The position numbers and the translations under genes are program-made. A DNA stretch of 35,865 bases from Tidjanibacter sp. (GTDB lineage Bacteria > Bacteroidota > Bacteroidia > Bacteroidales > Rikenellaceae): assembly GCA_017390585.1 (NCBI GenBank), contig JAFPBB010000014.1:1-35865 (forward strand). Direction: 5' to 3'. This document shows positions 22,701 through 34,232 of the stretch, one piece after another. The first letter of the stretch is position 1; the number at the start of each line of letters is the position of its first letter. Under the pieces are notes generated by a model, which was given only the letters and a program-made list of their open reading frames with translations, had not been told where the DNA came from and searched no databases.

Positions 22701-23711
22701 CTACAGTTCGGAATATCTTCGGCGGCGACCAACAAGATAGTGCCACACCATCCAACGCCCGAAAATTGTGTCGGGCTCCTTTGTAGGTTCCACGCCGTTC
22801 CAAATACGCTCTCGCTTTCCATCGAGCACACTCCGATGGGCCCTATAGTCGCGGTGGGCACGCCCCACGGCAAGCGCAAAGTTCCACTTACCCGTAAGCA
22901 GATAGACAATCTGCGACAAGCGGTCCATCCACAAACGACGTCTCAGGCGCCACATTGCCGACTCTGGCAAACACTTGTGCATCATATAGAGCGAGTTGCG
23001 GAAGTTGAGATATATTTTGCGGGGCGAGTTGTTGGGCAAAGTGCCGCCACCAATATGATAGACGACGCTATCACTCACAGCCTCAACACTATAACCCATC
23101 AGCTGCAGTCTCCAGCAGAGGTCTATCTCCTCCATATGGGCAAAGAAATCCTCATCCAATCCGTCCGCCTTGTGCCACGCCTCGGCCCTCACAGCCAAGC
23201 AGGCTCCACTGGCCCAAAAGACTTTTGCAACCTCGTCATACTGCCCCTCGTCGCGCTCAACGGTGCCCATAATCCTGCCTCGGCAAAATGGGTAGCCATA
23301 GAGGTCGATGTATCCACCCGCGGCACCTGCATACTCAAACATTTCGGGAGCGTTGTAGGCTCTGATTTTAGGCTGCACGGCGGCCACTTGGGAATCTTGC
23401 TCCAACCGCTCCACGAGGGGTTCCAACCACCCCTCCGCAGGCTCCACATCGCTATTGAGCAACACAAAGCAATCGCCCTCCATATCTCGCAGTGCCCTAT
23501 TGTAACCGCCTGCAAAACCGTAGTTCTCGCCGAGAGGCAACCACCCCACACCCTCCACTCGGGCCACCACCTCGCAGGAGTTGTCGGTGGAGCCATTGTC
23601 GGCCACCACCACCCTCGCCCACGCGGGCATAGTGGCAACAACTCGCGGCAGGAATCGCTCGAGCAGGGAAGCTCCGTTCCAATTAAGTATGACGACCTTG
23701 GTCGATAGCAT
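22701..23711 (-). CDS. Glycosyltransferase family 2, rhamnosyltransferase-like
   Basis: The 336-residue GT-A enzyme shows VVILNWNGASLL, VVVADNGSTDNS for nucleotide-sugar binding, ENYGFAGGYNRAL, FVLLNSDVEP as the DxD-like metal motif, and FFAHMEEIDLCWRLQLMGY, a pattern typical of WbbL/RfbN-type transferases that add sugars to lipid-linked glycans. The donor and acceptor are not known. I start at ATG 23709-23711, which overlaps the TGA of the acyltransferase gene (TGATG); a GTG one codon upstream is possible. Its pairing with a lipid A acyltransferase suggests surface glycolipid synthesis. Confidence 0.92.
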   Translation of the reverse strand: MLSTKVVILNWNGASLLERFLPRVVATMPAWARVVVADNGSTDNSCEVVARVEGVGWLPLGENYGFAGGYNRALRDMEGDCFVLLNSDVEPAEGWLEPLVERLEQDSQVAAVQPKIRAYNAPEMFEYAGAAGGYIDLYGYPFCRGRIMGTVERDEGQYDEVAKVFWASGACLAVRAEAWHKADGLDEDFFAHMEEIDLCWRLQLMGYSVEAVSDSVVYHIGGGTLPNNSPRKIYLNFRNSLYMMHKCLPESAMWRLRRRLWMDRLSQIVYLLTGKWNFALAVGRAHRDYRAHRSVLDGKRERIWNGVEPTKEPDTIFGRWMVWHYLVGRRRRYSEL

Positions 23712-31409: not shown

Positions 31410-34013
31410 CTAATTTGCGAATGTAAGTTTATCCCCCTCGGCGTCAATCCTAATGGGCCTTTCGCGGTTGATTTGCCCTGCGAGAATAAGTTTGGAGAGC
31501 TGATTGACCACCTCGCGTTGGATTACCCTCTTCACAGGACGGGCACCATAGAGCGGATCGTAGCCCATCTTGGCAATCAGCTTTGTTGCCTCGGGAGATA
31601 CTTTGAGCTCCACCCCATTGCGGGCCAAAAGTCGGCTTAGACCGGCTATTTGCATCGACACGATTTGCTCAATATCACCCATCGTAAGTGGCTCGAACAT
31701 AACTATTTCATCCACACGATTGAGAAACTCGGGCTTAAATTGTCGCTTGAGCAATTCCACCACCTCGGCGCGAGTCTTACTGATCACCTCGGCAGAAATT
31801 TCACCCTCAGCAATCGCCTCTCCGAAACGCTCCGAGATAATAGGCGAGCCAATATTGGAGGTCATAATGACAATCGTATTGCGGAAATCCACTGTACGGC
31901 CTTTGTTGTCCGTAAGGCGGCCATCGTCGAGAAGTTGAAGGAGGATGTTGAACACATCGGGATGGGCCTTTTCAATCTCGTCGAGCAGCACCACCGAGTA
32001 GGGTTTGGTTCTCACCGCTTCGGTGAGTTGTCCACCCTCTTCGTAGCCCACATATCCCGGAGGCGCACCCACCAGGCGAGATACGCTATGTCGCTCCTGA
32101 TACTCACTCATATCAATTCGGGTCATCATCGACTCGTCGTTGAACAGAAACTCTGCCAAAGCCCTCGCCAACTCGGTCTTACCCACGCCCGTAGTACCCA
32201 AGAAGATGAAGGAGCCGATGGGTCGGCGGGGGTCGTTGAGACCTGCACGCGAACGACGCACAGCGTCGGCAACCACCTCTATAGCACGATGTTGGCCCAC
32301 TACACGTTTGTGCAGCTCGGTCTCCAGATGGAGCAGTTTTTCGCGCTCCGAGGAGAGCATTCGTTGCAGAGGAATGCCCGTCCAACGCGATACAACCTCT
32401 GCCACGTCCTCCGAGTCCACTTCCTCCTTAATCATAGCCTCACCCCCGGCCGTTGTGAGTCGGAACTGCTCCTGCAACGCCTCGATGGTGCGCTCGGCCT
32501 CCACAATCTTACCATAGCGAATCTCTGCAACACGACCATAGTCGCCATTGCGCTCGGCCTGCTGGGCCTCCACCTTGAGTTCCTCGATAGCCTCCTTGTT
32601 CTGCTGAATCTGTCGCAGCAACTCCCTCTCCGACTGCCACTTGGCGCGAAGTGCCGATTCGCGAGCCTTGAGCTCTTCGATATCGCGCGTGAGACTCTCG
32701 ATGCGTTTGTTGTCGTTCTCTCGACGGATGGCCTCTCGCTCAATTTCGAGCTGGCGAATGCGCCTGTCGAGGTTGTCGATATCCTCGGGCACGGAGTTCA
32801 TCTCGAGACGGAGGTGGGAGGCTGCCTCATCGATGAGGTCGATGGCCTTATCGGGCAGGAAACGGGAGGTGATATAACGATGGGAGAGTTCCACAGCCGA
32901 GATGATGGCTTCATCCTTAATACGCACCTTGTGGTGGCTCTCATATCGTTCCTTGAGTCCGCGGAGGATGGAGATTGCATCCTCCGTAGTTGGCTCATCC
33001 ACAAGCACTTTCTGGAATCGACGTTCGAGGGCCTTATCCTGCTCGAAATACTTCTGATACTCATCGAGAGTGGTGGCACCAATAGTGCGGAGCTCACCTC
33101 GCGCAAGTGCAGGCTTGAGGATGTTTGCAGCATCCATTGCTCCGCTCGACTTGCCTGCGCCCACAAGGGTGTGGATTTCGTCGATGAACAACAGAATCTC
33201 GCCATCTCCGGCCACCACCTCCCCCACTACAGCCTTGAGTCGCTCCTCAAATTCACCCTGATATTTGGCTCCTGCAATGAGAGCACCCATATCGAGCGAG
33301 AAGATAACCTTACTCTTGAGGTTTTCGGGGACATCGCCGTCGACAATTCGGTGGGCAATGCCCTCAGCAATGGCGGTCTTACCCACACCGGCCTCACCCA
33401 CAAGGATGGGGTTGTTCTTGGTGCGACGCGAGAGGATTTGCAACACACGTCGAATCTCCTCATCGCGGCCGATTACGGGATCGAGACGACCACTTCGCGC
33501 GAGTTCATTGAGATTGATGGCATACTTACCCAAGGCATCAAACTCCTGCGAGGCGGTCTGGGAATCGACCGTAGCCCCCTTGCGAAACTCACGAATGGCA
33601 GCCTCGAGATCCTTTTCGGAGACTCCCGACTGTTTCAGGAGGTCGGCCACCTCGCCTCGTTCTGCAACCATTCCGAGCAGGAGGTGCTCCACCGAGGCGT
33701 AGCGGTCGTTGAACTTGCGGGTCAAATCCACGGCTTTCTGCACCACTTTGGAGGTGGAGGTGGCGAAATAGTTACTCTCGGCAGCTCCGGAGACTCGGGG
33801 TAGTCGTGCTATCTGTTGCTCCACCTCATCACGTAGTCGTGCCGTGTTGACTCCCACGCGAGAGAGCAGATAGGAGGCGAGAGTGTCGTCTTGTGCAATG
33901 ATGGCGGCGAGGAGATGCTGTGGTTCCACCGCCTGCTGTGAGTGCTCCGCGGCAACAGCTATGGCTGCTTGCAGAGCCTCTTGTGCTTTGATGGTCAATG
34001 TATTGATGTTCAT
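31410..34013 (-). CDS. clpB: ATP-dependent disaggregase ClpB
   Basis: The 867-residue AAA+ chaperone dissolves aggregates with DnaK. It has the double Clp-N repeat ([14 protein letters not shown], and VEHLLLGMV), AAA-1 with Walker [14 protein letters not shown] and the arginine-finger region, a long coiled-coil middle domain ([28 protein letters not shown]), and AAA-2 with Walker [15 protein letters not shown] and [31 protein letters not shown] start at ATG 34011-34013 (MNINTL), the family N-terminus; the longer frame reads through the promoter region. Upstream lies a sigma-54-type element with a repeat array, so heat-shock control may be by an activator rather than by a sigma-32-type factor. 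Confidence 0.97.
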
Positions 34014-34045: not shown

Positions 34046-34062
34046 TGCAAAACTGCTGCCAA
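34046..34062 (-). promoter_or_regulatory. Sigma-54-type (-24/-12) promoter of clpB
   Basis: On the minus strand TTGGCAGCAGTTTTGCA has GG and GC exactly 12 bases apart, the diagnostic spacing of sigma-54 promoters (consensus TGGCAC-N5-TTGC). The GC lies about 33 bases before the start codon, giving a short leader. No TAnnTTTG box was seen nearby. Confidence 0.6.
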
Positions 34063-34086
34063 GCATAGCTGTGGGCGAGGAGTTGT

Positions 34087-34183
34087 GGCACAATGACACT
34101 CCTATCTGCCACACTGACCGAGGTGGGGACACACTGACACCCCACCCCCCGACACATTGTCGCCCGCAACACGACACAATGTC
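34087..34183 (-). promoter_or_regulatory. Five helically phased 11-bp repeats upstream of clpB
   Basis: Plus-strand copies are GGCACAATGAC (34087), GCCACACTGAC (34108), GACACACTGAC (34128), GACACATTGTC (34151) and GACACAATGTC (34173). Their starts are 21, 20, 23 and 22 bases apart, about two helical turns. The nearest copy is 24 bases upstream of the -24 element. Two copies are near-perfect palindromes. This is the layout of an activator binding array. A partial sixth copy (GACACAAAAC) starts at 34191. Confidence 0.65.
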
Positions 34184-34194
34184 CGCCGCCGACA

Positions 34195-34232
34195 CAAAAC
34201 AAGGCTCCTCCCCAAATCTTGGGGAGGAGCCT
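34195..34232 (-). terminator. Terminator of the GLUG-repeat protein gene
   Basis: AGGCTCCTCCCCAA (34202-34215) pairs perfectly with TTGGGGAGGAGCCT (34219-34232) around three bases. On the minus strand TTGTTTTG follows the stem. It lies 45 bases past the stop of the surface protein gene and just upstream of the clpB control region. Confidence 0.88.

Follow-up and report, generated by a model that had tools for sequence, protein, structure and literature searches.

A probable sigma-54 promoter and a helically phased array of palindromic sites upstream of clpB in a Tidjanibacter genome recur at chaperone genes of its relatives

Results

A -24/-12 element and five repeated sites precede clpB

The window, by which we mean the whole stretch of 35,865 nucleotides that was analysed, comes from contig JAFPBB010000014.1 of a Tidjanibacter sp. 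assembly (GCA_017390585.1; 1.75 Mb in 84 contigs). It carries clpB on the minus strand, and the best matches of this gene were to records named Alistipes and Rikenellaceae, with an identity of up to 81%, which agrees with a member of the Bacteroidales of Rikenellaceae type. The gene and its control region contain the following features:

31410..34013, minus strand: clpB, encoding an 867-residue disaggregase (Pfam Clp_N, AAA, AAA_lid_9, AAA_2 and ClpB_D2-small)
34046..34061, minus strand: -24/-12 sigma-54 promoter TGGCAGCAGTTTTGCA, read directly, with GG-N10-GC, 33 bases from the clpB ATG at 34013
34086..34098, minus strand: putative activator site 1, TGTCATTGTGCCA, gap to the -24 box 24 bases, 9.7 bits
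34107..34119, minus strand: putative activator site 2, GGTCAGTGTGGCA, gap 45, weak at 3.7 bits
34127..34139, minus strand: putative activator site 3, TGTCAGTGTGTCC, gap 65, 7.2 bits
34150..34162, minus strand: putative activator site 4, CGACAATGTGTCG, gap 88, 8.4 bits
34172..34184, minus strand: putative activator site 5, GGACATTGTGTCG, gap 110, 7.4 bits
34203..34231, minus strand: inverted repeat, seen by eye in the sequence, which resembles a terminator for the gene upstream

The promoter element fits TGGCA-N6-TTGCW with the GG-N10-GC spacing of sigma-54 promoters. A preliminary description of this locus had reported a -24/-12 element with exact spacing about 33 bases before the clpB start, and both its position (34061 to 34046 on the minus strand) and its spacing proved exact. 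A -24/-12 element also lies upstream of clpB in most of the relatives that were read. The inverted repeat at 34203..34231 reads as separating the upstream gene from the clpB control region.

The same description had counted five 11-bp repeats. Their positions and steps were exact: on the plus strand the consensus GNCACANTGNC starts at 34087, 34108, 34128, 34151 and 34173, in steps of 21, 20, 23 and 22. We take the repeat unit, more aptly, as a 13-bp palindrome, TGACA-N3-TGTCA, of which the clpB copies in the window, the second of them weak, are degenerate versions. A perfect site scores about 21.6 bits, compared with 3.7 to 9.7 bits for the copies in the window. In relatives, the clpB upstream regions contain near-perfect 13-bp palindromes (for example TGACATTTTGTCA, TGACAAAATGTCA and TGACAAATTGTCA), often placed exactly 11 bases before TGGCA.

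The number of sites at clpB exceeds that in shuffled sequence

Elsewhere in the window GNCACANTGNC occurs only at 22949 and 26229 (seven matches in total, five of them at clpB), and a genome-wide search gave 96 matches in 1.75 Mb versus 21 for the backward pattern. Because this consensus came from the sites themselves, we used a separate matrix that had been trained on 21 sites from non-clpB genes of other genomes. With this matrix four of the five clpB sites scored at least 7 bits and all five at least 3.5 bits, whereas none of 3000 dinucleotide-shuffled versions of these 150 bp contained more than two sites at 5 bits or more than three at 3.5 bits. In the rest of the window the background density was 0.50 sites per kb with a threshold of 5 bits and 0.34 with one of 7 bits, and in 19 other loci of the same genome it was 0.31 per kb at 7 bits. 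The region upstream of the -24 box has thus the layout of an enhancer array: five repeated palindromic sites, a count reached in none of the 3000 shuffles.

Both elements are found at other chaperone genes of the same genome

Control of clpB by a sigma-54 activator, as proposed in the preliminary description, requires rpoN, and the genome encodes it (Sigma54_DBD, E 3.5e-52, contig C40). Our search of other chaperone promoters in this genome covered htpG, groES and dnaK, and both elements were present at all three genes. Upstream of htpG the palindrome TGACAATTTGTCA, a perfect site, is followed after 12 bases by the promoter TGGCACACCGTTTGCT; at groES the palindrome TGCCAATTTGTCA is likewise followed after 12 bases by TGGCACGGAGGTTG; and at dnaK the palindrome TGACATTTTGTCA precedes the promoter TGGCACAGAGATTG by 54 bases.

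A genome-wide search with the -24/-12 pattern returned 22 matches, with palindromes close upstream at clpB and htpG and a single partial palindrome match 144 bases upstream at one further locus (L046). The other 19 had no palindrome under the pattern used. The plain -24/-12 pattern by itself is a poor guide; ending in TTGCW, it also misses the groES and dnaK promoters of this genome, which end in TTGCG and TTGA. An identical 16-base -24/-12-like sequence, TGGCAAAACGCTTGCA, with similar preceding bases, was seen near contig ends at two loci (L041, C8:361-376; L054, C46:930-945), and its presence on two contigs suggests a repeated element.

The arrangement recurs at heat-shock genes of relatives

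We searched 60 genomes with a strict pattern in which the palindrome, with one base left free, is followed after 6 to 36 bases by TGGCA-N6-TTG. This gave 29 matches in 24 genomes, and the backward control gave none. The matches precede htpG (nine), clpB (seven), groES (six), grpE (two) and one each of dnaK, lon, hsp20, a clpC-like gene and secA, so that 28 of the 29 lie before chaperone or protease genes and one before secA; gene identity was assigned by Pfam for 10 and by reading N-termini for 19. A class-wide draw of 295 genomes gave 24 strict matches in 24 genomes, again with none for the backward control: grpE eight, htpG five, dnaK three, hsp20 three, groES one, thioredoxin two, rhomboid one and a beta-flower protein one. 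Twenty of these 24 precede grpE, htpG, dnaK, hsp20 or groES. The htpG count includes that of the window's own genome, which is also in the 60-genome set; of the 23 new matches, 20 were named by Pfam and three by reading N-termini. The strict form is thus specific but not universal, with no match in 271 of the 295 genomes.

Upstream regions were read for 28 of 34 groES matches and 24 of 28 dnaK matches, many of them from one genus. By pattern, the promoter was present in 23 of the 24 dnaK upstream regions and in only 10 of the 28 groES upstream regions. Both elements are thus found at chaperone genes of related species, as the preliminary description had anticipated. Judged from these sequences, the arrangement of promoter and sites is not special to clpB, and its recurrence at heat-shock genes of relatives points to one shared heat-shock activator.

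Two side observations were made in these genomes. At two dnaK loci (L261 and L270, from G000 and G005) a second TGGCAC-like element with a spacing one base shorter (TGGCACTCTTTTGC and TGGCACGGTTTTGC) lies just before the -24/-12 element. In addition, 12 of the 60 genomes (G005, G010, G013 and others; G005 and G035 are 99% complete) gave no match to the ClpB N-terminus (200 residues) yet carried the candidate enhancer-binding protein (EBP) described below; loss or alteration of clpB is possible in these 12.

Sites keep a fixed helical phase relative to the -24 box

For the analysis of phase we collected 105 clpB upstream regions, comprising 75 of 80 named loci and 30 loci from a ClpB search in the 60 genomes. 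Five named loci were dropped, either because almost no upstream DNA was present or because the match began after residue 1; the ClpB search had matches in 48 of the 60 genomes, some of them to other Clp ATPases. With a loose pattern, 88 of the 105 had a -24/-12 element within 25-200 bases. The 17 with no such element in this range, among them that of G054, whose promoter lies farther out, were excluded from the phase test. Six of the 88 promoters had no site, leaving 82 with sites, and removal of four near-duplicates from the 88 at a 60% identity cut gave the set of 84 used in the phase test.

The gaps between sites and the -24 box cluster at 11-13, 21-24, 32-34, 40-45, 52-55, 63-66, 73-77, 84-88, 97-99 and 105-110 bases, with a few outliers beyond. 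Phase coherence R was 0.806 at 10.5 bp (160 sites, 84 promoters), and the best period among 6 to 20 was 10.6 bp. When proximal sites were left out coherence was 0.76 (111 sites), and at 11 bits it was 0.87. In 100 shuffles there were 14 sites on average and at most 28, compared with the 160 observed, and coherence had a mean of 0.25 and a maximum of 0.66 on at most 28 sites. Without proximal sites one shuffle reached 0.77, on at most 23 sites, which exceeds the 0.76 observed on 111, and column-permuted matrices gave coherence of up to 1.0 on few sites. Because shuffles and permuted matrices can give a high R on few sites, the argument is carried by the number of sites and by a rotation test, not by R alone.

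When each promoter was rotated as a block, none of 20000 rotations reached the observed coherence (82 promoters with sites, near-duplicates kept); with one promoter from each of eight families, our own left out, two of 20000 did (17 sites). With a period of 10.6 bp across 84 promoters, the sites lie on one face of the helix. The earlier reading that the repeats share one helix face is borne out across relatives, in which the sites keep whole helical turns between themselves and the -24 box. Upstream regions of dnaK had a coherence similar to that of clpB (0.72), and those of groES were less clear (0.63).

A site at a gap of 11-13 was present in 52 of the 88 clpB promoters, and a further 16 had none there but did have one at 21-24, as in the window (24, 45, 65, 88 and 110). 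Classic enhancers lie farther out than these proximal sites, whose centres are about 18 bp from the -24 box, and the fitting of an EBP ring there is a point against the reading as an EBP-bound array.

An EBP encoded next to lptE is the best candidate activator

The genome that contains the window has two strong EBP genes, P0002 and P0003. P0002 has the composition of an EBP: an AAA+ domain (PF00158) with the GAFTGA motif and a C-terminal Fis-type helix-turn-helix (HTH_8), with no sensor domain. By Pfam, its gene lies in this genome between an HU-CCDC81-type gene and lptE. The EBP gene is directly followed by lptE (contig C58; L003:306-815 on the minus strand and L003:814-2037), which places the proposed heat-shock activator beside an LPS-assembly gene in this genome. 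P0003 (L002:1252-2397, minus strand, contig C62) has a receiver-like N-terminus, and little sequence follows its AAA+ lid; it has no HTH_8 match and no recognised DNA-binding domain, and may either act without contacting an enhancer or be a shortened protein.

All 60 genomes had an EBP match, and 59 had one similar to P0002 (at least 54% identity; some are cut by contig ends, and three of the 59 have one internal stop). The exception, G002, is 76% complete and has only a paralogue-like EBP of 43% identity. At least two EBP matches were found in 50 of the 60 genomes, and some have up to 11 EBPs, in which another EBP could bind. Ten genomes had one EBP match, and each of the nine that were checked had a single strong PF00158 match. 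Four of these nine (G015, G036, G037 and G054) are 99% complete; G015 also carries a 129-residue frame with a partial PF00158 match. Palindrome and promoter are kept at clpB in G015 and G036. In G054 the clpB upstream region reads, by eye, TGTCATTTTGGCA, 12 bases, then TGGCAAATATTTTGA, and in G037 there was no palindrome-plus-promoter evidence at clpB.

In five of 29 genomes groES is encoded on the same strand as the EBP gene, 1.65-2.8 kb downstream. The Flavobacterium psychrophilum locus tags in PMC9723704 (EBP 0733, lptE 0732 and groES 0729) suggest the same neighbourhood. Across 30 orthologues of P0002 the conservation of the HTH was 0.81, versus 0.86 for the AAA+ domain. The linker between the two is long and includes a conserved helix at residues 280-307, in which residues are invariant in 17 sequences. 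A structure model, mediocre in confidence (mean pLDDT 69.8, pTM 0.55), contained the AAA+ domain, helix 280-307 (block pLDDT about 57-66) and the HTH, with disordered linkers. Among the 25 NCBIfam matches listed, no family scored above its cut-off for P0002.

P0002 is the best candidate for binding TGACA-N3-TGTCA, and its likely binder. We arrived at this proposal by eliminating other EBPs and from its distribution and genomic surroundings: it is near-universal in relatives, is the sole strong EBP in some genomes, and in five of 29 genomes is encoded near groES.

Discussion

We consider it quite probable that the clpB control region consists of a sigma-54 promoter and a five-site array for one EBP, likely P0002, on the helix face of the -24 box. 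The presence of rpoN and the recurrence of the arrangement at chaperone genes of this genome and of its relatives support the earlier proposal that a sigma-54 activator controls clpB.

Chance repeats in the G+C-rich spacer behind the terminator, next to a fortuitous -24/-12 element, would agree with the degeneracy of the window sites and with the lack of such sites upstream of most of the 22 -24/-12 matches in this genome. This is highly improbable, however: the shuffles did not reach the site count, orthologous promoters carry the same elements, and upstream of htpG in this genome the site is perfect and its distance the usual one. We rejected it on the shuffles and the low background density of sites. 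It is also rather improbable that the palindromes are operators of a chaperone repressor, with sigma-54 activation coming from elsewhere. The commonest site, at a gap of 11-13, is near enough to the promoter for a repressor to block RNA polymerase, but sites that keep phase with the -24 box continue out to a gap of about 110, as in an activator array, sigma-54 promoters need an activator, and the repressor HrcA is absent from the 60 genomes. HrcA/CIRCE, CtsR and sigma-32 control act on the same kind of target genes. Unlike an HrcA/CIRCE regulon, the present system had no HrcA in any of the 60 genomes and no exact CIRCE element in any of 310 loci, only some of which are chaperone upstream regions; HrcA/CIRCE control was rejected on this evidence, in keeping with the initial suggestion of control other than by HrcA.

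That the sites bind a different EBP, for instance one of the receiver-domain type of P0003 under two-component control, is unlikely. A receiver domain would provide the signal that P0002 lacks, and 50 of the 60 genomes do have at least two EBP matches. Against this, P0003, the receiver-type EBP of this genome, gave no HTH_8 match, and none of the four 99%-complete single-EBP genomes has a second strong EBP, two of them keeping the clpB site. On these grounds a receiver-type EBP was rejected as the binder, and P0002 remains our preferred candidate.

Sigma-54 control of chaperone genes is already known in kind from two papers (PMC9723704; PMC12316311). In F. psychrophilum, sigma-54 (SM4) -24/-12 promoters with mapped 5' ends have been described at groES-groEL, lon, dnaK, grpE-dnaJ, htpG and clpB, and the published sigma-54 promoters include rhomboid and thioredoxin-family genes (PMC9723704), a list that our strict matches at rhomboid and thioredoxin genes also fit. 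That paper states three PF00158 proteins, and its section 15 mentions neither an activator nor sites for one, nor any phasing; in its Table 2 the lptE-linked EBP has an SM5 promoter (PMC9723704). The -24/-12 promoters at chaperone genes are shared, and operator, phasing and candidate activator are what is added here. An in-silico sigma-54 regulon across phyla found chaperone genes of Bacteroidota enriched for sigma-54 promoters, and cites a Blattabacterium paper (its reference 80) for the sigma-54 dependence of grpE and groES (PMC12316311). In the portion consulted, that regulon relies on the promoter motif only and assigns no upstream site or cognate EBP. The passages of PMC3162934 consulted contain no word beginning with "bacteroid". 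In the open literature, with subscription papers outside our scope, we found no published source for the palindrome, the phasing or the identity of the activator.

Among known EBPs, PspF of enterobacteria has an AAA+ domain similar to that of P0002 and likewise has no N-terminal sensor domain. P0002 nevertheless scored 259.9 bits against the curated PspF model, far below its cut-off of 443.55, and differs from PspF in the long linker that includes the conserved helix and in its predicted targets, which are chaperone genes and not psp genes.

Under the preferred reading, in which P0002 binds the array, several EBP dimers would sit side by side on successive turns of one helix face, and the AAA+ ring would touch sigma-54 from a fixed direction. 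Where each site is weak by itself, as at clpB in the window, the array would raise occupancy, several weak sites replacing one strong proximal site. P0002 lacks a sensor domain, and a natural guess is therefore that a partner protein controls it, much as PspA restrains PspF; helix 280-307 would be the place to look for such control. More tentatively, and as a proposal that we regard as possible but doubtful, one sensor-less EBP encoded next to lptE could be the master heat-shock activator of the Bacteroidales, and probably of most Bacteroidota. It would follow a grammar of whole helical turns starting 11-13 bases from the -24 box, and would be held by a chaperone, perhaps through helix 280-307, and released when misfolded proteins titrate that chaperone.

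Most work on the distance and angle at which EBPs can act has used looping enhancers at longer range, and sites as close as 11 bases to the -24 box would offer a natural data set on both. To our knowledge, the control of heat-shock genes in the Bacteroidota, a dominant gut phylum, is poorly worked out. The arrangement described here would give a testable answer for heat shock in this phylum: one operator, one candidate activator and one spacing rule.
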